Shown here: one piece after another, positions 2 to 21,006 of the stretch
How positions within the stretch are numbered: position 1 is the first letter of the stretch
Layout: each line of letters starts with the position of its first letter
Virus record (IMG/VR): IMGVR_UViG_3300025645_000559
Location: 1-21,006 of that record
Length of the DNA: 21,006 nucleotides
Reading direction: 5' to 3' (one strand)
Source of the DNA: a virus
Notes under the pieces: generated by a model
What the model saw: only the letters and a program-made list of their open reading frames with translations
What the model was told of the DNA's origin: nothing
The model's database searches: none
Position numbers and translations under genes: made by a program

Positions 2-1177
2 CTTCTGATGAACCACATCATGAAAACCGTGATCCAGGAGTACACAAACGCCTCCAAGCTTCTTGGGCAAACGCCCATCGACTATGAGGTAGCTCTCACT
101 GCCACGACTAACAAAGCAGTCGAAGTCCTCAGCGTAGCTACGGGCTTCCCTGCCACGACAGTCCACAGCTTCATGAACCTGAAGGTCGTGGACAACTACA
201 CCACAGGTGTCTCTTCGATCACCCGGACCAACTCCTGGAAAGTGCATAAGAACCAGCTCATCTTCGTTGACGAAGCCTCGATGATCGACACCAAGCTGCA
301 TGACTTCATCTTGCTCGGCACAGATTCCAGCTGCAAAATCATCTATCTGGGTGACCACTGCCAGATGGCACCGGTCTTTGAGACCATCTCCCCGGTCTAC
401 AAGCACCCCAAGAACTTCGTCAATCTGACGGAACCAATGAGGAATGCGGGCCAGCCTGCCCTCGTTGATCTGTGCGCACGTCTCCGCAACACCGTCGAAA
501 CTGGGAAGTTCTTCCAGCTCCCATCGGTTCCTGGTGTCATCGATTATCTCGACGGCCCGTCCGCTCAGCAGTTCATCGACACCACATTCAAAGTCGAGAA
601 CCCTGGCTGCCGGATGCTCTGTTACACCAATGCCCGGGTCCAAGAGTATAACGACTATGTCCGAAATCTAAGGGGTTACCCTGATCTGTTCACCGAGGGT
701 GAAGTCCTGATCAACAACTCCGGCATCCAGCTCGGCAAAACCTTTCTGCGTGTTGAGCAGGAACTCACAGTCAACAAGGTTCTCTCTACGCCTGCACCCC
801 ATTCTCTCGATGCCACAGACCCTAACGCCACGATCGATGTCTATCGGGTCGAACTTAGCACACCTGGTGGTTCCCCCATCTCCGTGATGATCCCGTCCAA
901 TACGGATCACTACAAAGCGATGATGAAGCACTTCGCCAGGATCAAAGACTGGACGAAATTCTACTTCCTCAAGAACAACTTCCCTGACCTTCGTCAGAAG
1001 GATGCGGCCACCGTCTACAAGGCCCAGGGCAGCACCTACAAGTCCGTGTTCCTGGATCTCGGCAACATCGGCAAATGCACCAAGGAAGATCAGCTGGCAC
1101 GGATGCTCTACGTCGGTGCCTCTCGTGCAACCACACGTCTGTTCTTGTTTGGCCAGCTTCCAGATCGCCTCTTTTAA
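2..1177 (+). CDS. RecD/Dda-type SF1B DNA helicase, 5' end cut by window
   Basis: This is an ATP-dependent 5'-3' DNA helicase of superfamily 1B, probably the replicative or recombination helicase of the phage; it corresponds in position to N4 gp37 (from memory). The frame is open to the left edge, and the first ATG in it (base 8) is preceded by two more open codons. The Walker A loop (motif I) is not in the window, so the true start lies upstream. Visible motifs in order: Ia (ALTATTNKAV), II (FVDEAS, Asp codon at 269), III (GDHCQMAPV), IV (LTEPMRN), V (VYKAQGSTY) and VI (YVGASRAT, near 1109-1132). Motifs V and VI match the UvrD_C_2 portion of RecD and Dda helicases. It is the first visible gene of a tightly packed rightward replication operon. 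Family is secure; the exact partner is not known. Confidence 0.93.
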   Translation, partial: LLMNHIMKTVIQEYTNASKLLGQTPIDYEVALTATTNKAVEVLSVATGFPATTVHSFMNLKVVDNYTTGVSSITRTNSWKVHKNQLIFVDEASMIDTKLHDFILLGTDSSCKIIYLGDHCQMAPVFETISPVYKHPKNFVNLTEPMRNAGQPALVDLCARLRNTVETGKFFQLPSVPGVIDYLDGPSAQQFIDTTFKVENPGCRMLCYTNARVQEYNDYVRNLRGYPDLFTEGEVLINNSGIQLGKTFLRVEQELTVNKVLSTPAPHSLDATDPNATIDVYRVELSTPGGSPISVMIPSNTDHYKAMMKHFARIKDWTKFYFLKNNFPDLRQKDAATVYKAQGSTYKSVFLDLGNIGKCTKEDQLARMLYVGASRATTRLFLFGQLPDRLF

Positions 1178-1187
1178 TGGAGAAGTT

Positions 1188-1457
1188 ATGACCAACCTCG
1201 AGAAGTTGTTCGGCCTCGATCAGATAGCCGATTTGTCCCAAATTGAACGGGACTGCCTCGCTGTCCGGTCAGAGTTTCCAGACATCTTGCGAGCTCTCGC
1301 ACTTGATGACTACGACCAGATCACGCTGACGATCTCCTCCGATTACGCCCTGATCCTTGCTGACGATATCGAGTTTGCCGCTCAGCATAATCCCCTTGGT
1401 GAGTTCGGTCCTCCTGCTTGGGTTCACCCTGACTGGGAGGACGACGACTTCACTTAA
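1188..1457 (+). CDS. Small acidic protein of unknown function
   Basis: This gene encodes 89 residues and I do not recognise the family. The start at 1188 is chosen because GGAG at 1179-1182 lies five bases upstream and the gene then begins 10 bases after the helicase stop. A longer reading in the same frame would run deep into the helicase gene and has no ribosome binding site. The protein is strongly acidic, with a C-terminal cluster of Asp and Glu after a Pro/Trp-containing stretch (PPAWVHPDW). It has no signal peptide, membrane segment or cysteine cluster. Its place between helicase and DNA polymerase suggests a replication accessory or DNA-mimic role, but that is inference only. Confidence 0.75.
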   Translation: MTNLEKLFGLDQIADLSQIERDCLAVRSEFPDILRALALDDYDQITLTISSDYALILADDIEFAAQHNPLGEFGPPAWVHPDWEDDDFT

Positions 1458-1483
1458 ACCCACCTCCATTGAGGAGTTTCCCA

Positions 1484-2008
1484 ATGTCTGCCCAATATCG
1501 CAATCCCATATACGTCAACCCTGTCATGGAACTCCTGGACCCAGTGGTCTCTGGTCTGATCATGCCTGAATGGCGCCGCCTGGATGCTATCCTAAAGGCA
1601 TTGATCCTCAAGAATTTCACCGCTGGTGGCCACGAAGATGGCTTCCTCCATGGGGGCGAAACCTACTGCCTCAAGAAGCCCTTCTATCTGCGTGGTGCGC
1701 AAATCTCCCCCATCCATTTCTCGCTCTTTGATGATGCAGAATTCTATCGGCAGTGTCGTGATGACTTGAAACGCGACATCAAGAAACTCCGTCAGTCACT
1801 GACTGTGGTTCTCCCTCGATGCCGCGACAAGCAGGATCTACGGGACGCATTCCCTGAAGTCTTGATCAGATACATCCCCGAGCTGCAGTCGCTGGCAAGA
1901 TCCAGAGAAGAGGGACACCTCCTGGAGTCCACTCCTGTGCTGCACCGCCAATTTGAACAAGCTGTGAAAATAGCCCTCGCTTACACAGCCAACCAGTTGA
2001 TATATTAA
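1484..2008 (+). CDS. Hypothetical protein upstream of DNA polymerase
   Basis: This gene encodes 174 residues of unknown family. The ATG at 1484 is preferred over an in-frame TTG at 1469 because GAGGAG at 1471-1476 sits seven bases before it. The N-terminal part is hydrophobic and mixed. The middle (near residues 85-110) is highly charged (DDLKRDIKKLRQS) and likely helical, and the C-terminal third also looks helical. No catalytic motif, cysteine cluster or membrane segment is evident. Its TAA stop overlaps the ATG of the DNA polymerase (TAATG at 2006-2010), so the two are probably translationally coupled, which hints at a role in replication. N4-like phages carry small unknown genes at this position. 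Confidence 0.8.
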   Translation: MSAQYRNPIYVNPVMELLDPVVSGLIMPEWRRLDAILKALILKNFTAGGHEDGFLHGGETYCLKKPFYLRGAQISPIHFSLFDDAEFYRQCRDDLKRDIKKLRQSLTVVLPRCRDKQDLRDAFPEVLIRYIPELQSLARSREEGHLLESTPVLHRQFEQAVKIALAYTANQLIY

Positions 2009-4611
2009 TGAAATATCTCACCTTTACGAAGCAAGAGCGCAACTCTTACGAGATATGCTTCCTTGTCCCCTCGCTACATATGGCAGATATCGACCGACAC
2101 TATGTCGAGCCGTTTCTCGATAATGAGCGTGAACACCTGCTGGCCTATGACCTGTTCCAACAGGGCAAGAAGACCCCAGTGAAACTCCAACGGGAGTACC
2201 TCGAGCAGCTCCTCCCAATTCTGGAGGATCTGCATGTCAAATACCTCGTCACCTGTGATGCAGAGTATTTCAAAACCCTCACCAAATCCCCCAAAGCAGA
2301 TGCTGCTCTAGGATACGTTCTGGATAGTGTCTGTGGCCGCTTCAAGGTCATCTACTGCCCAAATTACAAGACGATCTTTTACGATCCAGACCGTATCAAA
2401 ACGAATATCAGTGCTGCCCTGCGTGCTCTCGCAATGCACCGGCAGGATACCTACCTTCCCCCGGGCTACGAGATCATCAAGTCTGGCTCCTACCCTTCAA
2501 CCACGGCTGACATCAGATCCTGGCTCCAGCTTTTGTTGGATATGAACTGCGCTCTATCGGCAGACATCGAGACATTCTCTCTGAAGCATCATGAAGCCGG
2601 CATAGGCACCATCAGCTTTGCATGGAATGAGAGCGAAGGTGTTTCCTTCGCAGTTGACTATGAGCCAATCCCCGGTGCCACATCAGCCCCCTACGGCAGA
2701 GCCGTAGTCAATGGGCCTGTGCGAGAGTTGCTGAAGGAGTTCTTCCGCGCCTTCAAACATAAGATGATCTGGCACAACATCAGCTTTGATGTCTATGTGC
2801 TTGTTTATCAACTCTTTATGGATGACCTCCTCGACACGAAAGGTCTCCTAGATGGCCAAGCAGTTCTTCTCAACAACTGGCACTGCACCAAGCTCATCAC
2901 ATACCTCGCCACCAACTCGTGTGCCGGTAACAAACTAGGTCTGAAAGACCAGGCCCAGGAGTTCGCAGGCAACTACGCTGTGGGTGACATCAAAGATATC
3001 ACCATGATACCTTTGGACGTCCTGTTGCGGTACAATCTGGTGGATACCCTTTCCACCTGGTTCGTCTTCAACAAGCACTGGCCCACCATGGTCCAGGACG
3101 AGCAGCTCGAGATCTATAACGAGCTGTTCCAGCCCTGCATTTGGGACATAATCCAGATGCAGCTCACTGGCCTTCCCATTGATATGGAAGAGGTAAAGCG
3201 TCTCGAGATCGAGTTGCAAACTCATTCCGACAAAGCTGTCGCTGAGATGAACAACAACATTCTCCTGCAGGAGTTCCTCTACACGGAGAATGAGGCCTTA
3301 GTTCTCAAGAAGAACGCAGAATACAAGGTCAAGCGCATCACGCTTGCTGATGTCGATGTACCCTTCAATCCCAACTCGGGCCCGCAGCTTCAGCGGTTCC
3401 TCTTTGAGCAGCTTGACCTGCCTGTTCTGGATCTCACCGATACAAAGCAGCCGGCCACTGGAGGGGAAACTCTCGAGAAGCTTCTGAACCACACAGAGGA
3501 TCCAGAGATACTGGAGTTTCTGCAAGCTTTGCTGGAGTTCAAAGGCGTCGATAAGCTCCTCACCAGCTTCATTCCTGCGTTCCTCAAAGCGGCGCCGGAT
3601 GACAATGGTTGGCACTGGCTCTTTGGCAACTTCAACCTTGGTGGAACTCTGTCCGGTCGCCTGTCCTCATCGGGACCCAACCTGCAGAACCTACCGGCCA
3701 AAGGCAAATGGGCTAAGCTGGTCAAGAAGTGTTTCAAAGCCCCTCCTGGTTTTCTGTTTATTGGTCTGGATTTCGACTCCCTTGAGGACAAGATTTCAGC
3801 TCTCACAACAAACGATCCCAATAAGCTGAAGGTCTACACGGATGGGTATGACGGGCACTCTTTGAGGGCCTACTCGTATTTCACCGAGCGGATGTCTGAC
3901 ATTGATCCAGACTCAGTGGCCAGCATCAACTCGATCGGCAAGAAATACCCCAATGAACGGCAGGATTCTAAAGCTCCGACTTTTGCCCTCACTTACCAAG
4001 GGACCTACATCACCCTGATCAACAACTCAGGGTTCACCGAGCCCTTGGCACGCCACATCGAGAACCAGTACCACGAGCTGTACCGGGTCTCAGACGAGTG
4101 GGTTGCTGCCCGCATCCATGAAGCCTCAAAGACCGGTTTCATCACGGGTGCCTTTGGTCTCAAAGTCCGGACCCCTCTGCTGAAGCAGACCATCCTCGGA
4201 AACCGAGGCACACCCTATGAAGCAGAGGCCGAAGGTCGCTCAGCGGGCAATGCTTTGGGACAGTCTTGGTGTCTCCTCAATAGCCGGGCCCACAAAGAGT
4301 TCATGAAGGTCGTTAGATCTGGTGAATATCGCCTGGATATACGGCCCTGCGCTCAAATCCATGACGCAGGCTACTACGTCATCCCTGATGCGATGCCTGT
4401 TTTACGCTATGTAAACAAGCATTTAGTCGAGGCTGTGCAGTGGCAAGATCACCCAGATATCCAACATGATGCCGTCAAACTCAGCGGGCAATTAGGGGTC
4501 TTTTACCCTGATTGGTCAGCGGAGATGACACTCCCAATCGAAGCATCAAGTGAAACTATCAACGATCTTGCTTATAAACATCACTTGAAATACTGTGCTG
4601 AAACCGCTTGA
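2008..4611 (+). CDS. Family A DNA polymerase with 3'-5' exonuclease
   Basis: This is the phage replicative DNA polymerase, 867 residues, the counterpart of N4 gp39. The exonuclease domain has Exo I (D186-x-E188), Exo II (HN at 256-257 with D261) and Exo III (Y342-x3-D346), so proofreading should be active. The polymerase domain has motif A (D588...E593), motif B (R651, K655, F659, Y663, the exact R-x3-K-x3-F-x3-Y spacing of E. coli R754/K758/F762/Y766) and motif C (H785-D786). Motif C reads HDA rather than the usual HDE, and motif A reads LDFDSLEDK instead of DYSQIELR. No 5'-3' exonuclease domain is present. About 180 N-terminal residues precede the exonuclease and match nothing I know. The start overlaps the previous stop (TAATG) and has no clear Shine-Dalgarno, so translation probably depends on reinitiation. 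Confidence 0.97.
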   Translation: MKYLTFTKQERNSYEICFLVPSLHMADIDRHYVEPFLDNEREHLLAYDLFQQGKKTPVKLQREYLEQLLPILEDLHVKYLVTCDAEYFKTLTKSPKADAALGYVLDSVCGRFKVIYCPNYKTIFYDPDRIKTNISAALRALAMHRQDTYLPPGYEIIKSGSYPSTTADIRSWLQLLLDMNCALSADIETFSLKHHEAGIGTISFAWNESEGVSFAVDYEPIPGATSAPYGRAVVNGPVRELLKEFFRAFKHKMIWHNISFDVYVLVYQLFMDDLLDTKGLLDGQAVLLNNWHCTKLITYLATNSCAGNKLGLKDQAQEFAGNYAVGDIKDITMIPLDVLLRYNLVDTLSTWFVFNKHWPTMVQDEQLEIYNELFQPCIWDIIQMQLTGLPIDMEEVKRLEIELQTHSDKAVAEMNNNILLQEFLYTENEALVLKKNAEYKVKRITLADVDVPFNPNSGPQLQRFLFEQLDLPVLDLTDTKQPATGGETLEKLLNHTEDPEILEFLQALLEFKGVDKLLTSFIPAFLKAAPDDNGWHWLFGNFNLGGTLSGRLSSSGPNLQNLPAKGKWAKLVKKCFKAPPGFLFIGLDFDSLEDKISALTTNDPNKLKVYTDGYDGHSLRAYSYFTERMSDIDPDSVASINSIGKKYPNERQDSKAPTFALTYQGTYITLINNSGFTEPLARHIENQYHELYRVSDEWVAARIHEASKTGFITGAFGLKVRTPLLKQTILGNRGTPYEAEAEGRSAGNALGQSWCLLNSRAHKEFMKVVRSGEYRLDIRPCAQIHDAGYYVIPDAMPVLRYVNKHLVEAVQWQDHPDIQHDAVKLSGQLGVFYPDWSAEMTLPIEASSETINDLAYKHHLKYCAETA

Positions 4612-12101: not shown

Positions 12102-15100
12102 TCAGTTCGTCAGGTTGACCCAAGGGTTCAAACCTGGCGCATTGAACAACATTCCAGGACCGACGGAATACCCAAGACGGTCATCAGCTATCACAGACAA
12201 TGCGTTATCCGTGATCGGAGAGCCCATAGACATGCCTGGCATGTCGGGCAACATCGGAGCGCCCAATGTCGTCAGAAGAGCCCTCAATGGGTTGTTCACA
12301 ATATGACGATGGGCAATCTTGATCGATCTGATCTTATACGCCCAGAACCACGTCAGGCCCATGCTCTCAGCATATGAGCGGGTCCGACCCGGCAGCAGGT
12401 TGTAGTTCACAAATTCCTCAGTGATCTTCTCCAGCGCCTGTTCATGTGAGGCTTTTCCATTTTTCTTAACATGATCGTACAAAACTGCTTTGCCCAGGAA
12501 GTCACCATACTGGACTGCACGAGCCATTCCCTTGAACAAGGCTGTGTCCCGGGAGATGACAGCATAGCGGCCGGCAGTGCCCAATTTAGACGGCAGCTTG
12601 TCTGCTTTCTCTTGGATCCACTCGACCCATTTACCTTGGCCAATGGCAGCGTCAGCTTCCGTCAGGCCCTCGGAGATAGTCGAGAACTCACCAGCTTCAA
12701 TGAGAGGCCAGATAGACATACGCCTGCTGGAATCCTCCAGTGATTTTAGCTCTGTCTTCAGCTTCCGCGTCTCGGTGTCGTTGCCCCTGAAGCGAGCCAG
12801 GTTGGCTTTGATCTCAACACCCCGGCTAAGGTTCTTCAGATGCTGGTCAATCTCCACCAGCTTTGTGGTCATCCCCTTGTGGATGTCCCGAGGAGAAACC
12901 CCATTCACCAAGAGCTGCATGAAGTTCGAGCCCATGTTCGAGATAGGCACAATCACCGATCGGATCACGATGGTGTTCTTTGCCACCGAGACACCGGCTT
13001 GCCATGCGGTCTCTGCTGTTTTCAGGTACTTGTAAGCGTTCTGTCCTAGGACAGCTGTCATGGTATCGGTCAACAGCTTCTGAGACTTTGGATCCAGACG
13101 AGACAACCCAACCCAGGCATCCCCAATAGAGGCTTCACGATAGCCGATTGTATTGTTCAGCATGTCACGGCGCACAGGGAAATTACCCTCGCCAAAAATA
13201 TCCTCGATGTACTCACGACTTTCGATTGGAACCAGCTTCCAGGCATCCCGGATAACGGGGTCTGAGTTCTGCTGGTCAGCCAGGTTTACGAATTCGTCTT
13301 TGCGGCCCTGACGTCTGTCACGGTCGTAGACCTCCTTGACCCGGTCGATCAGCATGAAGTTGAACTCTTGCGCAAGCTCTTCCTCAGCCTGACGTCCTGC
13401 CCAGGCACCGATCATCTCATCGGCTCTGGTGTTTGGATCAAGGCTGGCAATCTTATCTGGGTCCATGGAACGCTCGTAGCCTACGACCTCGCCCGTTGAG
13501 TCATAGATTGGCATCAATGCCTCACCGAAGCTCCTGCGAGCTCCCTGGCCTGCTTTCAGGCGCCGTTTTACATTCCCGACTTCCGAATTTGCCAAACGAC
13601 CTGCAGTTTTACCCGTCACAGTGCGGCCGGTCCTTGGATCAACACCCATGGCCGAGATCTGCACAGTCTGGAGAGCTCCCTGCATGTACTGATTGTTGCC
13701 CGCTACGGTGGAGAAGTAATAGCCCTTCTTGCCTGCTTCAAAGCCCGATCCCTGGTAATCGCCGAGACGGGTATATCCCAGAGACTTTAGACGATTGAAC
13801 TCAGTGTCATCGGCAACCATCATCGTGGCACCTTCACGGCTCTCGCTTGGGATGTATCCTTTGTAGCCGTTCAGCCTTGCGGCATCCGTCGACTGCTTCT
13901 TGACTTCGTTCCGGCGAAGGTCAGCCAGATAATATGTCACGAAATCCATGCCGGCAGCTTCGGTCGCTGACAGCTTATTGACTGCCACCAGAGTATCATT
14001 TTCCAGATTGGCCACAGCGTACAGAGTGGTCAGGCGATCAATTGCATCAATGGATGCCTTGGTCGTGACCATTCCCTTCTTGTCCTCTCCCAACAGACGC
14101 GAGATTGCTTCCGCATTCCGCAGCAGATTGTTGTTGTTCGAGGCGATCTTGCCGCTGATCATGAACTCCGCAAGCTCTTGGGCTTTTCTGATGTAATCGT
14201 CGGCAACCTTAGGAGCTTGGCTTCTGACCTCAGTCTCAGCCTTCTCGATCTCCTCGGTCATATAAGCTGGATCATTGATAATCTTGCGGATCTGCTCAGC
14301 AGTGTACGTCTCCCCCAAAGCAGCGATGTCGGTTTTACCCAGAGCCATATGAAGCTGGCTCCACTCTGTCTTCGTGAGTTTGCGGCTGAACTGCTCCGTG
14401 AGAATCCGCGGCAGTGTCTCCCTGAAATCCTGACGCATTCCTGAAACCGCGTACTTCACCCGGTTGATCATCTCGTAGACGACTTTGTTCTCGTCGGTTT
14501 GTCCGATGGTTTCGTTGATCAATTCCAACACGACACGAGGAATGTTCTTGGTCTCGTTCAAGAGGCTGACCGTCGCATTGGCCATTGCTTTGCCTTTGTT
14601 GGCATTTACCGCCGAGGCGAGAATTCTAGCACTCCCCCACAGAACTTCCCGGTTCTTGCTGCGACCCTCAGCTCGGTCCTTCAGGGTCTTGGCATCTGCG
14701 AAATCCCCAAGGCGCTCACCAATGGTCGATAGGAAACCAGCTCCGGCTGCGTCTCCCTGGCTCAGCAGGGCCTGTGACTTCTTCTCCACCAATGTGTGAT
14801 CATCAGCTTCGATCTTAGAAAGAACTGCCGTCAGGCGATCCAGAGAAAGCAGGGTGCTCTTGTTTCCAAGTCCCTCTCCGGCGATCGACGTTGCCAAAGT
14901 ATTCAGAACGCTGTCTGCTGCTGACTCAAGGAACTCGTCCATTGAATCGAATGAGACATTCCGGTCTTTTGGCAATGCTAGAATCCGAAGAGTCTCCCGG
15001 AACTGCGGGTCCACCTGGCTCAGAGCCAGGAAAGAAGCCAGCAGGTTCGAGCGGCCCTCGAGATCTGTCTCCACGCCGTATTTACCAGTGAGCACGTTGA

Positions 15101-18100
15101 ACTTCTGCTGCGCCGTATAACGATCTTGCTGACCATTCAGATCGGGCTCGTCCATGAAGCTCTCGACCGTCAACTGCTTGGTGACGTGGGCGAAGATCTT
15201 CTGGATACGCACCAGTGCTTTGTTGTCGAACTCCATCGTCGACGCCATGGCAGCCTGAATGTTCCGGAAAGCTGAGAGCTGCTCGGCATCCATATCAAAC
15301 CCGGCACTCATGAAGGTGTTTGCTGCATGGTTGGCCAGATCAGTGATCTTCAGTTCTTCCGAATCAACCTTCAGCGGGTCCCGTGTTTTCAGGTGCGATG
15401 CGATCTTGCGATCAAAGGCATACATCATTCCTCTTAAGCGACTGTCTGAGGTTTTGCCCGAGACCTGATTGAGGAGTAATCCCGGGGGTGTCGCAGTCTC
15501 CCCTGACGATACGTCGTTAGATACCAGCAATGCTCCAGTATTGAAGGCGATGTTCGAGAAGATATCCAAGGACTGTTGTGGGGACAGGCCGAGCAACTTC
15601 CGCAGACCTTTCAGGCTGGCATCCACCAGTTTCTGCAAAGGTGTACGGACCCGCGCCGTACGGAGTGCATTGATCAGGTTCTGGTTCGTCAGTGTCCAAG
15701 CAATGAACTCGTTCATCGCTGAAGCGTTCCCAATCACACCGCCTTGTCCTTGGTATTTGGTGATCTCAGCCTGCACCAGCTCTGCTGCTTCTTTGGTCTC
15801 CAGACCATCAACAGCGAAATCCATCGTCTGGAACTGGGCCATCAGGCTTTCCAGATTCTGAATGGCAGCCCGCTGTGTCTCAGTCATCTGTGAAGGATCA
15901 TCGTAGAACTGCAGCAGTTGCTTGCTCAAAGCAGCGTGCAGCATCTCATGCAGGACAGTTTCGCCTGCCTGGTTCGAGATGTAGATCACCCCGTTCAGCA
16001 GGTCTATCTGACCGTTCTGAATGTCGCCGGAGCCTTTGCGCTCAGGGAAATTCTTATCCCGGAAAGCCGTCAACTTCTTGGAGGAACCAAAGAAGAAGGT
16101 GAATCCCGGCATGGCGTCTGCCACAGCCTTGACCAAGACCAGATTATCTTTGCTGGTCAGGTCGCTGTTCATCAGAACACGCACACCTTCGACATCCATT
16201 TTGACCAGACCAGGTCCGTCATCGCCGACCTCTGTGCCGACTTCACGAATGCGGTCCCGGAACTTCCGGAGAGGTTTTTCAATGGCGCTGTCCGAAGTTT
16301 GTATGTCTTTTTCGGACTTAAGTTTTGCCAGCTCCTCGTCATACATCAGGTTCATTCCCTCGACGAGATCACCTTCAATGACCTCACCCTCTTTCGAGAA
16401 TGGGTTCTCACCAGATGCCATGTGATCGATCGAGTAACCGATCCGCTTGTAGACGTTCTTTCGAGCCTGGATGGACTGGGCAATGATAGCGATGCGCTCG
16501 TTTATGCCCGCCATTTCCTCAGTAATATCTAAGATCGGATCCCCGACCCCGATGTCCACACCAAGAAGCTTGACGAGTGCCCCCAAGAGTTCGCTGTTTC
16601 TCTCGAGCCCTTTCAATGGCCCGTCTTTTTCCTGGCGCATAAAGTCAGTGAAGCTGTCGGACATATCCTGTGCTGGGTTTTCCAGCCAAGCATCAGAGAC
16701 GGCTTCGTTGATCAACGCTGAAAGTGTGTCGATGCCGTCGGCAGGCATCTCCAGACCGTCAAAGACAGGTAGAGTTTTCAGTGCTGTTGGATCCAGAGAT
16801 TCCTTGGCGAAGTAATTCACCATCATCTTTGCGTCACCCCGGGAGATCGTCAGAAGAGCAGAGACTTTTACGCCTGCTTCTGCTGGACGTGGGATCGTTG
16901 CATTTCCGGAATATTCGTTATCCATGCTCCGGAAGAATTCATCTTGCGACTTCGATGCTGCTTTGTTCGAGAGGTTCAGGTGGTGCTCATCATTCTGGAT
17001 CGGAGCGATCACGGCCCCGAACTTGGCCATCTTGTCGAACACAGCTTGATAATCATTCTCACTCATGAAGTCGGCGCCGCCCAGCTCACCCTTTTCCCGC
17101 TTCTCTTTGAGGACTTCTTGCACGGCATTGTCGAAGCGCGTGATCAGGATCAAAGACTGAGCCTGTGTAGCCTTCTGGAAGACTTCAAGTGTGGACTGGG
17201 TCCCGCCCATCATCTGTTTAATGGCCGCGTTCATTGGTGACACAAACAGGTTCTGCAGGTTCGTCGACAGCATCGCCATATTTCCACGGCTCAGCTGAAA
17301 ATTGACGCCATCGTTGATGTCCCCCAGAGGGTGGCGCTTCTTATCGAAGTCCTTGTCAGTGACATACCATTCGGTTTTGCCCCCTTTGCGAGACTTGCCC
17401 ACACGGGTTGTGGTCAACATCGTCAGGTCTTTAGCCAGTGTGGGATAATTCTGCAGGCTTGGGACGTCCGACAACTGCAGGCTTGGGTCTGCCAGATCGA
17501 CACGCATCTGCTCCAGCTCGGTCATCTTCTGGTACAGGACCTCTGTTACCGCAGAAGTAACTTTGTTGGCTATGCCTTTGACTCCAGAGCCATAAACGGT
17601 CACCGTCAGTGGGTTCTTCAGGATGCCCCGCCCAATGACCAACTCGCCCTTCTCGTTGAAGCTGGCGTCTTTGATCAGGTAGTTCATGATGTTGTTTACG
17701 GCCGTCATGTGCCCTTGGGCTTTTGTCCCCATGACACTTTTCTGGACCTTAGCAAGTTCGTTCTGGAACAGCACAGCCGCTGTCTCGTACAGATCGACGC
17801 TGTCGCCTTTGATGTATTCGTTCAGGGTCTTGCCCTGCTCGTTGGGGTAAAACCCGCCCTTAGCCATGTTCAAAAGCTGTGACGCATCAAACTTCCCAGT
17901 CAGGAAGTGGATCATCGCATTGATCGGGCCGTCGGTTTTACCGTCTGCCTCGAGGGAGAGGTTGTGCTTGAAGCTTGTCAGGGCTTCTCCACCTTCCGCT
18001 ACAGCCAGGTTATATTGGGCAACTGAAAGAATGGCGTGCAGGATTTTCGGTGTGCCTTCGCCGCCAAGTTCACCCAGAAGGACGTCTTTTTGGGCTTGGC

Positions 18101-21006
18101 TCAACTCGCCTCCGGCTTCCAGGAACTCCTCCATCACAGTGATCGAGTCACCGAATTTCTCGAAGATCTTCTCCTGGACAATGTCGATACCGTCGGCCCG
18201 GGCTTCTTTCTCTGTCTTCACCAGATCAGAGGACTGGGCCACAGTGAGCCAGAACAGCTCCCTGCCCTTCTCCGTCGTCATATCAAGCGTCGATACCGTG
18301 GCGACGAAAGCTTCCCGCATTGTCTTGTCCGACTGGGGGTTAAAGCCATCAGCATGGATACGTTCGTTTGAGACCACATACCAATCGAAGTGTGTCTCTA
18401 CCTCGTCGGGGTTCTTGCCTTCTCTGTCGGCATAGCCCTCCAGCTGAGCATTATGGCTTTCCACTCCATTCCAGGAATAGTCGACAGAGTTATTCTTGCC
18501 TTGGATCGAAACCACGTCGACTTTGTTCATCCGGGTCTCTTCAATTACCCGCTTGCCCATCAGCTCACCAAAGGTCTCCCGGCCGATCGCCTGCATCATA
18601 TTGAGATACGGCGTGTTCCGCATGAACGCGATATCCTGGTGACGCCTCAGAGCCTTGGTCATCTTCGCACCAAGCTTGCCGAGTGGGTTGTTCTTCTGGC
18701 TCTTGCGAACAGCGTCCGGTGTCTGATCAAAGTAGAACGCACGCTCAGCTTCTGGGAGAAACGCATCCTGCAGGAACATACGTGTTCCCTTCAGCTGCTC
18801 GATGACCTCTGCAGAAGTTTCGTTCGTCAGCTGAATGAAAATAGCATCTGCTGTGACGCCTGTTTCGGCTATTTCAAGCTCGAAGGTGGACTTGGTCACC
18901 AAGTGCCCGTCCATGACTGATAGCAGTTCAGCAGCGATTGCCTGAGATATCCCCAAAGTATCCGACATAGGGGCATCTTTGTTGGTGGTTACACCCCAGA
19001 ATTCCCGGATGGTTCTGGCGAGAGATTCAGCAGCAGTATTTGCACCCAGACCAGAGTTGGCAGCGTGCATCATTCCTGGTGTCACGGCGTCTTCTTCGAC
19101 ACCAAATATCTTGGCGACCTCCTCCGCAGAGTTGTTCCGGCTGCCGGATGTGTTCATCGTCCAATGCAAGGCGGCCAGTGCTGCTGCCTGGATCAAACGT
19201 GGATCGTACACCTCTGCTTCTGGATCAACCAAGTTGAGGGCCCGTGTTTCACGGAAGCCTGTGTAGTCCTTGTCTTGCGCCAGAGCTTCCAGCGGTGTCA
19301 GCTTTCCACTGCTGAGAGCTTTCTTCTTGGTTTTCAGAGACGCATTCATGCGATTGACCAAGCCACCGACTTGGCGTTCGATGAGCGTGTTCCAGGCTTT
19401 GATTTGGTCTTGGTCCATCCGGTAGTTCAGCGCCAGCTGATCCCGGTACGTCTCGTAGGAACCAAGGAGCTCTAGAACACCCCGGGCCGGGTTATCACTT
19501 TGCATCAACAGAGACTTCTTGGTGTCGACTGTGTAGGCCCGCACGAAACGAACGACGCCTTTGGCTGTCTTGGCTAGGTTATCAAAGCTGAGGCTTCTTC
19601 CGGGTTCAGCAATGACAGAGTCACTTGCTGGTTCAGTTCCCGCTTCATCTTGGTCCGGAGTGCTTTGCGACACGCTCTCCGTGACGCTTTCCTCAGCAAT
19701 TTGTTCTCCTGTAATTTCCTGAGAAACAACCTCTTGTTCGCTTTCTGCTCCGACTTCGACAGATACTGCGACATTCTGCTGCTCCTGAGTTTGGACTACT
19801 TCTTGGGTGGCAGCTTCCTCAGTCTCTCCAGGAAGCCCTTGGGTATCTTCGATGACGGGTGCACTGGTTCCCGCATCAGCTTCTTCGACGGCAGGGATTT
19901 TTCCTCCGGCTTGTCCGATGGTTTCTTCAACGTAAGCTACTCCTTTAGGCATCAGTGTTTTTGCTACATCAGCGTCGATGAGCAACATTAGGGCGCCGAT
20001 CTCAGCGAAGAGTTCCGAAGCCAGAATTGCAGGGTCTTCCTGACCCAGAGCGTATTCAAAATACTCGGCCATTTCCGGGTCTGATTCAACAAGTCCCAGG
20101 ACTTCTGCGTGTATTTTGCCACCCACCATCAGCTCGTTTTGTTCCATGGATGCTGTGCGGCCGAAGGTCTTTGAGGCCGCCGCATCAATCATGTGCATCA
20201 GCTCGTGATACGCAACGTGAATCCCATCTTTGTCGACACCCGCAATCATCTTCTTCAAGACAGACGGCTTCAAAGAGAGCACCCGCTCGGTCCAGTAAGC
20301 TTGACCCAGATGATCTTTTTCTGGCGACTTGAGCCAGGCTATCCGACGAATAAGTGAGGGGGCGAGATTGAACCTTTCGAGGATAGGGTTCACTACGTCC
20401 CGCACCTGTTGAACCCTCTGAGGGATCATTGGCAGGCTCTCAACGTCAGCTTCCCAGCCATTAACCGAAGTCAGTAACTGGTCATCGGTCATCGCATCGA
20501 AGTCAGCTTTTGTCCGTGTCTCGTTGTCGGCCAGCTCCAGCGCATCAGGCTCGGCTTCGTTGACAATCGTTTCAGGCTCAATCTGATCCACAACCTCGGT
20601 TGTCTCTACTGGAGTAACCTCAACAGGGTCCGCTACATTCTCGGTATTTTCCTGAACTGCAGGGGCCGGTGTAGCTTCACGCAACGGTGGCAAAGCCTGA
20701 CCAGTCAACTCACTGCCGTAGATCGTGATCAGATTGTTGTAGAGATTGGACACAGTCTCTGCGTCGATCGCTGCTTCTTTTCCCAGCTGAATCGAATTCG
20801 GGGAGTTTGCGTTGATCCCTATCTTGCCTGCATTGTCCTTGTTGGCCTCAATCCAGGCAACTCCAGTCCATGTGCGATAGGGCACAGTGTTGTTCTTGGA
20901 TTTCCCAAGCGCAAACGACTCTCTGGCTGCCTTCACTTTGTTCTGCATGTGCTCGCCAAAGTTCCGGAGGTTATCCAGTGCAAGCTGTGCCATGAGTTGA
21001 TCGCCA
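12102..21006 (-). CDS. Giant virion RNA polymerase (N4 gp50-like) with two zincin motifs
   Basis: At least 2,963 residues; numbering is from the ATG at 20993. No ribosome binding site precedes that ATG and the frame stays open to the window edge, so the true start may lie outside. Layout: N-terminal domain (1-105); acidic linker (about 107-158); first zincin motif H263-E-L-M-H267, possible third ligand E327 or E331; second acidic Glu/Gln/Val/Thr linker (about 368-465); single-subunit RNA polymerase core (about 460-1565); second zincin motif H1682-E-M-L-H1686, possible third ligand E1762; then about 1,200 mostly helical residues. Polymerase residues: D1017 (motif A, DGKTDG), R1122/K1126/Y1134-GSG (motif B, the R-x3-K-x7-Y spacing of T7 R627/K631/Y639) and D1412 (motif C, VFDGLEMPADG). 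In N4 the homologous 3,500-residue protein is packaged and injected to transcribe early genes. Cells would receive this one together with the DNA. Confidence 0.92.
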   Translation of the reverse strand, partial: GDQLMAQLALDNLRNFGEHMQNKVKAARESFALGKSKNNTVPYRTWTGVAWIEANKDNAGKIGINANSPNSIQLGKEAAIDAETVSNLYNNLITIYGSELTGQALPPLREATPAPAVQENTENVADPVEVTPVETTEVVDQIEPETIVNEAEPDALELADNETRTKADFDAMTDDQLLTSVNGWEADVESLPMIPQRVQQVRDVVNPILERFNLAPSLIRRIAWLKSPEKDHLGQAYWTERVLSLKPSVLKKMIAGVDKDGIHVAYHELMHMIDAAASKTFGRTASMEQNELMVGGKIHAEVLGLVESDPEMAEYFEYALGQEDPAILASELFAEIGALMLLIDADVAKTLMPKGVAYVEETIGQAGGKIPAVEEADAGTSAPVIEDTQGLPGETEEAATQEVVQTQEQQNVAVSVEVGAESEQEVVSQEITGEQIAEESVTESVSQSTPDQDEAGTEPASDSVIAEPGRSLSFDNLAKTAKGVVRFVRAYTVDTKKSLLMQSDNPARGVLELLGSYETYRDQLALNYRMDQDQIKAWNTLIERQVGGLVNRMNASLKTKKKALSSGKLTPLEALAQDKDYTGFRETRALNLVDPEAEVYDPRLIQAAALAALHWTMNTSGSRNNSAEEVAKIFGVEEDAVTPGMMHAANSGLGANTAAESLARTIREFWGVTTNKDAPMSDTLGISQAIAAELLSVMDGHLVTKSTFELEIAETGVTADAIFIQLTNETSAEVIEQLKGTRMFLQDAFLPEAERAFYFDQTPDAVRKSQKNNPLGKLGAKMTKALRRHQDIAFMRNTPYLNMMQAIGRETFGELMGKRVIEETRMNKVDVVSIQGKNNSVDYSWNGVESHNAQLEGYADREGKNPDEVETHFDWYVVSNERIHADGFNPQSDKTMREAFVATVSTLDMTTEKGRELFWLTVAQSSDLVKTEKEARADGIDIVQEKIFEKFGDSITVMEEFLEAGGELSQAQKDVLLGELGGEGTPKILHAILSVAQYNLAVAEGGEALTSFKHNLSLEADGKTDGPINAMIHFLTGKFDASQLLNMAKGGFYPNEQGKTLNEYIKGDSVDLYETAAVLFQNELAKVQKSVMGTKAQGHMTAVNNIMNYLIKDASFNEKGELVIGRGILKNPLTVTVYGSGVKGIANKVTSAVTEVLYQKMTELEQMRVDLADPSLQLSDVPSLQNYPTLAKDLTMLTTTRVGKSRKGGKTEWYVTDKDFDKKRHPLGDINDGVNFQLSRGNMAMLSTNLQNLFVSPMNAAIKQMMGGTQSTLEVFQKATQAQSLILITRFDNAVQEVLKEKREKGELGGADFMSENDYQAVFDKMAKFGAVIAPIQNDEHHLNLSNKAASKSQDEFFRSMDNEYSGNATIPRPAEAGVKVSALLTISRGDAKMMVNYFAKESLDPTALKTLPVFDGLEMPADGIDTLSALINEAVSDAWLENPAQDMSDSFTDFMRQEKDGPLKGLERNSELLGALVKLLGVDIGVGDPILDITEEMAGINERIAIIAQSIQARKNVYKRIGYSIDHMASGENPFSKEGEVIEGDLVEGMNLMYDEELAKLKSEKDIQTSDSAIEKPLRKFRDRIREVGTEVGDDGPGLVKMDVEGVRVLMNSDLTSKDNLVLVKAVADAMPGFTFFFGSSKKLTAFRDKNFPERKGSGDIQNGQIDLLNGVIYISNQAGETVLHEMLHAALSKQLLQFYDDPSQMTETQRAAIQNLESLMAQFQTMDFAVDGLETKEAAELVQAEITKYQGQGGVIGNASAMNEFIAWTLTNQNLINALRTARVRTPLQKLVDASLKGLRKLLGLSPQQSLDIFSNIAFNTGALLVSNDVSSGETATPPGLLLNQVSGKTSDSRLRGMMYAFDRKIASHLKTRDPLKVDSEELKITDLANHAANTFMSAGFDMDAEQLSAFRNIQAAMASTMEFDNKALVRIQKIFAHVTKQLTVESFMDEPDLNGQQDRYTAQQKFNVLTGKYGVETDLEGRSNLLASFLALSQVDPQFRETLRILALPKDRNVSFDSMDEFLESAADSVLNTLATSIAGEGLGNKSTLLSLDRLTAVLSKIEADDHTLVEKKSQALLSQGDAAGAGFLSTIGERLGDFADAKTLKDRAEGRSKNREVLWGSARILASAVNANKGKAMANATVSLLNETKNIPRVVLELINETIGQTDENKVVYEMINRVKYAVSGMRQDFRETLPRILTEQFSRKLTKTEWSQLHMALGKTDIAALGETYTAEQIRKIINDPAYMTEEIEKAETEVRSQAPKVADDYIRKAQELAEFMISGKIASNNNNLLRNAEAISRLLGEDKKGMVTTKASIDAIDRLTTLYAVANLENDTLVAVNKLSATEAAGMDFVTYYLADLRRNEVKKQSTDAARLNGYKGYIPSESREGATMMVADDTEFNRLKSLGYTRLGDYQGSGFEAGKKGYYFSTVAGNNQYMQGALQTVQISAMGVDPRTGRTVTGKTAGRLANSEVGNVKRRLKAGQGARRSFGEALMPIYDSTGEVVGYERSMDPDKIASLDPNTRADEMIGAWAGRQAEEELAQEFNFMLIDRVKEVYDRDRRQGRKDEFVNLADQQNSDPVIRDAWKLVPIESREYIEDIFGEGNFPVRRDMLNNTIGYREASIGDAWVGLSRLDPKSQKLLTDTMTAVLGQNAYKYLKTAETAWQAGVSVAKNTIVIRSVIVPISNMGSNFMQLLVNGVSPRDIHKGMTTKLVEIDQHLKNLSRGVEIKANLARFRGNDTETRKLKTELKSLEDSSRRMSIWPLIEAGEFSTISEGLTEADAAIGQGKWVEWIQEKADKLPSKLGTAGRYAVISRDTALFKGMARAVQYGDFLGKAVLYDHVKKNGKASHEQALEKITEEFVNYNLLPGRTRSYAESMGLTWFWAYKIRSIKIAHRHIVNNPLRALLTTLGAPMLPDMPGMSMGSPITDNALSVIADDRLGYSVGPGMLFNAPGLNPWVNLTN

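Follow-up and report, generated by a model that had tools for sequence, protein, structure and literature searches.

The closest described system is the virion RNA polymerase (vRNAP, gp50) of bacteriophage N4, research on which, as a polymerase, goes back more than 50 years according to the discussion of a recent preprint (Bellis 2025, PMC12633501). The protein was counted among the polyvalent proteins, with a metallopeptidase (MPTase) region at residues 2130-2448 (Iyer 2017, PMC5512222), and the metallopeptidase of the N4 and Cbunavirus vRNAPs was repeated in a 2021 review (PMC8472413). The preprint further reports N4 structures, notes an HExxH motif in the C1 domain, places the linker between the N-terminal domain (NTD) and the RNAP at residues 907-1006, describes how the C-terminal domain (CTD) restrains and autoinhibits the RNAP, and gives a beads-on-a-string model of ejection (Bellis 2025, PMC12633501); all of these sources are cited here for selected passages. 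In this work, a stretch of viral DNA of 21,006 nucleotides was analysed in full (positions 1 to 21,006 of the IMG/VR record IMGVR_UViG_3300025645_000559, hereafter the window). One of its genes encodes a vRNAP of this type in which two zincin-like domains flank the polymerase. The two domains are predicted to be clearly different and of the gluzincin type. We hypothesize, at roughly even chances, that the window protein is an N4-type vRNAP combining a near-constant, self-acting C1 domain with an accessory, exchanged N-terminal zincin.

The window open reading frame (ORF) is an N4-type (Schitoviridae) virion RNA polymerase. It matched phrog_2206 (virion RNA polymerase) with an E value of 0 over residues 2-2962 (profile positions 717-3405), the N4 vRNAP Pfam domains PF21894, PF21769, and PF21867 all exceeded their cut-offs (residues 780-895, 1077-1291, and 1379-1526, respectively), and its best PDB matches were the solved chains of the N4 vRNAP. 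By homology to that protein, it is probably encapsidated and injected. Only two HExxH motifs occur in the 2963 residues, HELMH at 263-267 and HEMLH at 1682-1686. Both lie on the minus strand exactly where the original prediction, made by a model from the DNA letters, had placed them, and the three Pfam domains sit between them, so the two motifs do flank the polymerase core as claimed. The features concerned are as follows.

12102..20993, minus strand: virion RNA polymerase ORF, 2963 aa within the window, N terminus cut by the contig end
19896..20492, minus strand: N-terminal accessory zincin domain, residues 168-366 (alignment A3; AlphaFold2 pLDDT 92.7, pTM 0.90; PDB neighbours)
20193..20207, minus strand: HELMH, first putative zinc-site motif, residues 263-267; H, E, and H invariant in 11/11 aligned and 18/18 environmental copies
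20013..20015, minus strand: E327 (SELFA), putative third ligand for zinc in the N-terminal zincin; invariant in 11/11 and 18/18, in a helix of the model
16362..19565, minus strand: T7-like polymerase core (mini-vRNAP), residues 477-1544 (phmmer to PDB 2po4, E 1.5e-93; Pfam domains)
15510..16262, minus strand: C1 zincin domain, homologous to C1 of the N4 vRNAP, residues 1578-1828 (A4 profile; AlphaFold2 pLDDT 89.6, pTM 0.86)
15936..15950, minus strand: HEMLH, second putative zinc-site motif, residues 1682-1686; HExxH and Glu in 88/91 vRNAPs fetched through the polymerase core
15708..15710, minus strand: E1762 (NEFIAW), putative third ligand for zinc in C1; Glu in 21/21 rows (references and window) and in 88/91 environmental vRNAPs

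Structure prediction gave a zincin fold with a candidate site for both domains, in AlphaFold2 models that contain no metal. The N-terminal model is a compact predicted zincin with three strands (50-55, 63-66, and 71-74 in the numbering of the model), the HELMH helix (HExxH 96-100 in helix 88-105), and a later helix carrying E327 (E160 in helix 154-172). In the C1 model, HExxH 108-112 lies in helix 103-124 and E188 in helix 178-195. The 11 aligned N-terminal domains of alignment A3 have in common the H, E, and H of the motif, an Asp at motif position +3, E297, and E327. The proposed gluzincin arrangement, with a conserved third Glu after each motif, is consistent with both models. E1762 was correctly named for HEMLH; for HELMH two residues had been offered, of which E327 holds and E331 is variable. 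Similarly, the expected order of a strand followed by a helix is found at HEMLH, while GIHVAYHELMH lies wholly in helix 255-272, with the strands farther upstream. That both motifs arose by chance in helices and form no metal site is hardly conceivable and already contradicted. HExxH is a short motif that does turn up by chance, and the environmental vRNAP L027 contains another, its third, at residue 1390; however, the shuffled window protein contained 0.032 HExxH motifs on average and two of them in 0/2000 shuffles, the motifs are conserved over deep divergence, and zincin folds are predicted around them.

The downstream domain is the N4 C1 domain, and this is already published and not new. 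The N4 vRNAP carries HELVH at 2228 and a Glu aligned to E1762, so the remark in the original prediction that no zincin was known in the N4 vRNAP was mistaken; the domain is stated in all three sources introduced above. The passages of the preprint covered here contain no assay of the C1 site, and those of the wider literature no experimentally tested function for either zincin domain. The top structural match of the C1 model is the N4 vRNAP (9pnt, Foldseek E 9.3e-8; 9pnr, Z 13.3 with 208 aligned residues and a root-mean-square deviation (rmsd) of 4.7). N4 C1 (gp50 residues 2124-2375) resembles the window C1 in its place behind the core, in fold, and in the HExxH and Glu; the difference is one of sequence divergence (27% identity), not of kind. 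PF18818 (MPTase-PolyVal) was absent among the C1 Pfam matches listed. The C1 profile also matched residues 420-559 of PDB 9sfn_G (E 2.5e-14), where HEAVH and KELVAWGLT are aligned to the site. This is a 1337-aa internal virion protein that is not among the PDB matches of the whole window vRNAP, so the C1 module may extend beyond vRNAPs. The matches of the profile to 8vb2 (gp48, E 0.064) and 23sg (gp10, E 0.14) were weak.

The constancy of the C1 site was followed in references and in environmental sequences. The 20 reference vRNAPs, some of them taken from further searches, were our own pick; 468 phage records matched. LIT1 and JA-1 were chosen by accession; they are not matched by the A4 profile and their C1 was assigned by alignment. 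An HExxH motif behind the polymerase was present in 20/20 references, including LIT1 and JA-1, in which C1 is only 17% identical to that of the window. A first environmental survey used search patterns that included the third Glu; the best 80 of 120 were listed, 16 near-copies were removed, and 68 remained. HExxH was found in 87/87 rows covering the motif (88 rows from 87 proteins, L065 appearing twice; L007 begins past the motif). In a second survey, vRNAPs were fetched via the RNAP core in two scans (A7, of which the best 80 of 92 were used, and A8), and near-copies at least 95% identical over the polymerase segment were removed, which left 96 distinct rows. The C1 region was in hand for 91 of them, as four contigs stop before C1 and the ORF of L134 breaks within it. 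The complete C1 site (H, E, H, and E) was found in 88/91. Since these vRNAPs were found through the RNAP core, they were not selected for the C1 site. C1 is nearly constant and not strictly indispensable. Because the HExxH...E site is kept in almost all of the schitovirus vRNAPs examined, it is most likely that C1 is a zinc-binding domain and that its action is on the vRNAP itself.

Several observations weigh against a self-acting C1 next to an LF-like accessory zincin. In L197 (the same as L112) and L198, HExxH is replaced by LEEIIQ and the Glu by Ala; the two are 88.5% identical and form one lineage. All three ligands are lost there, so at least one lineage can dispense with catalysis by C1; the N-terminal zincin of this lineage is intact. 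L173 (1-6633), a sequence available without its N terminus, had no C1 match even at E 10 and no HExxH, and its polymerase runs on to C2. The idea of an invariant C1 site was therefore rejected, first by the dead site of L112 and then by L197, L198, and L173 in the core-based survey, and the expected conservation of HExxH in relatives holds for the window and most relatives, though not for these. C1 resembles LF-type zincins only weakly (Z 7.8), and Foldseek returned no match for the N-terminal model at E <=0.001. Packaging of the N4 vRNAP reportedly takes place without processing (Iyer 2017, PMC5512222), and for recombinant N4 gp50 "no evidence of degradation" was seen (Bellis 2025, PMC12633501). 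The full-length protein was purified in 0.5-1 mM EDTA in the latter work, so the absence of degradation is no test of a metallopeptidase. In the main text of the same preprint, a search for "zinc" and "Zn2+" finds only the word "zincin".

The ligand-less C1 of L197 and L198 (the dead domains occupy residues 2180-2306 and 2146-2271, respectively) shows that the domain was retained and can have a metal-free role. It would fit the alternative that the HExxH sites do not currently act as proteases and hold a structural metal or serve another chemistry, e.g., alpha-ketoglutarate-dependent hydroxylation. The preprint text points to HExxH in radical SAM enzymes as well and cites a paper on fused alpha-ketoglutarate (alphaKG)-HExxH proteins (Bellis 2025, PMC12633501); 8s5f, with a domain of the latter kind, reached Z 6.4 with the N-terminal model. 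Moreover, the passages of the literature covered here report no proteolysis by a vRNAP domain. On the other hand, the general-base Glu is kept together with the ligands in 88/91 C1 and 18/18 N-terminal domains, whereas a purely structural zinc would not need it, and the Z scores of the peptidase neighbours are higher, reaching 11.5. We consider this alternative distinctly improbable.

The N-terminal domain is, as far as the model can tell, an LF/PPEP-like zincin distinct from C1. Among the PDB neighbours listed, the catalytic domain of anthrax LF gave Z 11.5 (160 aligned residues, rmsd 3.7), followed by PPEP-3 (Z 8.9) and 3dl1 (Z 8.6). The last is a putative metal-dependent hydrolase in the PDB, which we take to be MtfA; the corresponding MEROPS labels are presumably M34 for LF and PPEP and M90 for MtfA. 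The M34-type comparison has to be read with the best Foldseek E value of only 0.018 and the lack of an ATLF match in the window domain. The window domain may have the gluzincin fold in common with LF, PPEP, and MtfA, but it is outside their sequence families and belongs to a phage virion protein, not to a secreted toxin or a cytosolic peptidase. No Pfam family reached its cut-off on the window domain. MPTase-PolyVal (PF18818) gave 11.5 bits against a cut-off of 27.5, and Peptidase M90 (MtfA, PF06167) had no match. Some relatives do match Pfam M90 or ATLF, unlike the window domain; PF06167 was matched by 3/6 A1 members (best E 1.1e-8) and 2/11 A3 members (best E 1.2e-5). An Asp three residues past HExxH is a feature of one widespread clade of polyvalent MPTases (Iyer 2017, PMC5512222), and the Asp at this position is invariant in the aligned N-terminal zincins, although the window domain misses the cut-off of the polyvalent family. 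The window protein is likewise a large phage protein that joins an RNAP core and two zincin folds in one ORF.

Two readings of how the protein came by its two zincins were considered and not supported. A recent duplication of one domain into two is not favoured by hhalign, which aligned A3 with A4 at a probability of 27.6% (E 0.00065) in 44 columns surrounding the motif; the two domains may have a very old common origin. For a recently acquired bacterial gene as the source of the N-terminal domain, a scan of genome contigs (A5) gave 230 pattern matches and no relative, which, with such narrow patterns, is weak evidence of absence. Single-sequence scans of IMG/VR returned 4 and 1 loci, three of which contain a small stand-alone zincin-like ORF of about 110 codons (L004:2122-2454, L005:5170-5502, and L006:5442-5774) with 47% identity to the window N-terminal zincin over 45 residues. 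L006 also encodes a GroEL-like ORF, as judged by eye.

The N-terminal zincin is distributed much more patchily than C1. It was present in 5/20 references, all of them Rhodovirinae (the roseophages R7L, DS-1410Ws-06, DSS3phi2, V13, and DFL12phi1), and absent from N4 and from the other two Rhodovirinae examined, CB2047-B and RD-1410W1-01. The five roseophages have the same layout as the window, in that one such zincin precedes the polymerase and C1 follows it, but their N-terminal zincins are only 18-23% identical to that of the window. In the first survey, the domain was found in 8/49 rows that were 5'-complete and longer than 2500 aa, L027 having come via the N-terminal query. The second survey found it in 18/80 5'-complete rows, with the site complete in 18/18; since all four A8 seeds carry the domain, 18/80 overstates its frequency. 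Two of the 18 came via A7 (one of them a near-copy of the window) and 16 via A8. On a polymerase tree of 77 rows, the trait required about six changes compared with 13.1 for shuffled labels, a count that is approximate because the 5'-truncated L043, L063, L065, L084, L093, L097, and L104 were scored as lacking the domain. Upstream HExxH motifs without an A3 profile match (L034, L051, L065, and L066) were left out of the counts. L065 has a second C1-type zincin upstream of the polymerase (residues 358-532, A4 match, HEMLH at 389), which is another two-zincin layout. HEFQH at residue 1196 of L034 and HELEH at residue 1100 of L051 also lie upstream of the polymerase and have no Asp at +3; they possibly belong to other cargo peptidases.

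The closest polymerase core to that of the window is in L031 (44% identity), whose N-terminal zincin is only 22% identical. Conversely, the closest N-terminal zincins are those of L027 (42%), L057 (40%; the same as L028), and L064 (38%), whose cores are 24, 26, and 24% identical, respectively. L112 and L116 also belong to this closest environmental group (41 and 38% identity as matched), L112 differing from the window by its dead C1. In approximately unbiased (AU) tests, a clade of the window and L031 was rejected with the domain data (p 0.0084), and a clade of the window, L027, L057, and L064 was rejected with the core data (p 1.5e-22). The groups were chosen with the identities already known and the branches are long, so the p value of 0.0084 should be read cautiously. 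The reciprocal pattern of domain and core is a stronger point than this value. As judged from these sequence comparisons, the N-terminal zincin is an exchanged cassette, apparently moved between vRNAPs by recombination.

Patchiness and exchange would also be expected if both zincins were host-directed effectors that cleave host proteins early, with the polymerase a mere carrier. In one relative, L091 (near DSS3phi2), an ART-PolyVal (ADP-ribosyltransferase) domain is encoded upstream of the N-terminal zincin (L091:4517-7219, E 3.6e-9), the fold neighbours include secreted and injected proteases, and the possibility was listed for polyvalent proteins (Iyer 2017, PMC5512222). However, the C1 site is near-constant over very divergent phages and hosts (20/20 and 88/91), unlike a fast-changing effector, and there is no known host target. 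That both domains act on the host is unlikely. For the N-terminal zincin taken by itself, its patchy distribution, its exchange, and the ART-PolyVal domain of L091 suggest accessory cargo.

The window ends within the vRNAP gene, which exits at the contig end (window positions 20994-21006), and the gene does not begin at the first ATG of the window. The relative L003 is identical to the window ORF over 1450 overlapping residues and starts 798 residues farther upstream. With this extension, the protein would be about 3761 aa long and HELMH would begin at residue 1061. In contrast to L091, the upstream region of L003 had no Pfam match at E 0.01. Further parts of the protein are two tethers around the N-terminal zincin and the region behind C1.

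20499..20696, minus strand: acidic low-complexity tether before the N-terminal zincin, residues 100-165 (D+E 26%, K+R 5%, E/S/T/P/V/A/Q 71%)
19566..19898, minus strand: acidic low-complexity tether from the N-terminal zincin to the polymerase, residues 366-476 (D+E 23%, K+R 2%, E/S/T/P/V/A/Q 77%)
12105..15509, minus strand: C2 region, residues 1829-2963, counterpart of the C-terminal C2 domain of N4 (phrog_2206 and N4 vRNAP matches reach residue 2962)

In the phmmer alignment, window residue 371 was aligned to residue 925 of N4, which is within the N4 NTD-RNAP linker. The N-terminal zincin is a small folded bead within a flexible tether, and this suits the beads-on-a-string model of ejection.

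The position of both zincins next to flexible segments (the acidic tethers and the RNAP-CTD linker) is also what would be seen if both were self-processing proteases with overlapping jobs, cutting the tethers that flank the polymerase in the head or after entry, with one of them able to suffice. The autoinhibition of the N4 RNAP by its CTD agrees with this, as does the intact N-terminal zincin of the dead-C1 lineage, which is expected if one covers for the other, although this is a single event. Autoproteolysis was proposed for polyvalent MPTases, with the processing of DdrB of phage P1 as a precedent, in a list that the functions suggested in the original prediction (self-cleavage, head processing, and attack on the host) resemble (Iyer 2017, PMC5512222). 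On the other hand, the N-terminal zincin is missing in 15/20 references, so its cut is not generally required, and the report that the N4 vRNAP is packaged unprocessed also speaks against it. We regard this alternative as possible but rather unlikely.

If C1 is self-acting and the N-terminal zincin accessory, as we hypothesize, C1 would most likely process the vRNAP in a regulated manner, or act as a conformational switch that depends on zinc. Either would happen close to the flexible linker between RNAP and C1, during entry or afterwards. The restraint of the N4 polymerase by its C-terminal domain would be a parallel for this role. The N-terminal zincin would be cargo that is injected and acts as a protease on a target in the host, and it may substitute for C1 in the lineage with the dead C1. 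The dead C1 and live N-terminal site of L197 and L198 hint that the two zincins can overlap, as a single event and not a proof. A bolder version is that C1 is a working, regulated self-protease which, once the protein has entered, cleaves close to the RNAP-CTD linker and thereby lifts the autoinhibition, while the traded N-terminal zincin takes over (L197 and L198) or attacks the host; we consider this a long shot. If it were true, the vRNAPs of schitoviruses would serve as vehicles for delivery, and the tether ahead of the polymerase would contain a bay for exchangeable proteases. The contrast between a near-constant C1, a swappable cassette, and a lineage that combines a dead C1 with a live cassette makes it testable why C1 is needed, whether the cassette can replace it, and whether the cassette acts on hosts.

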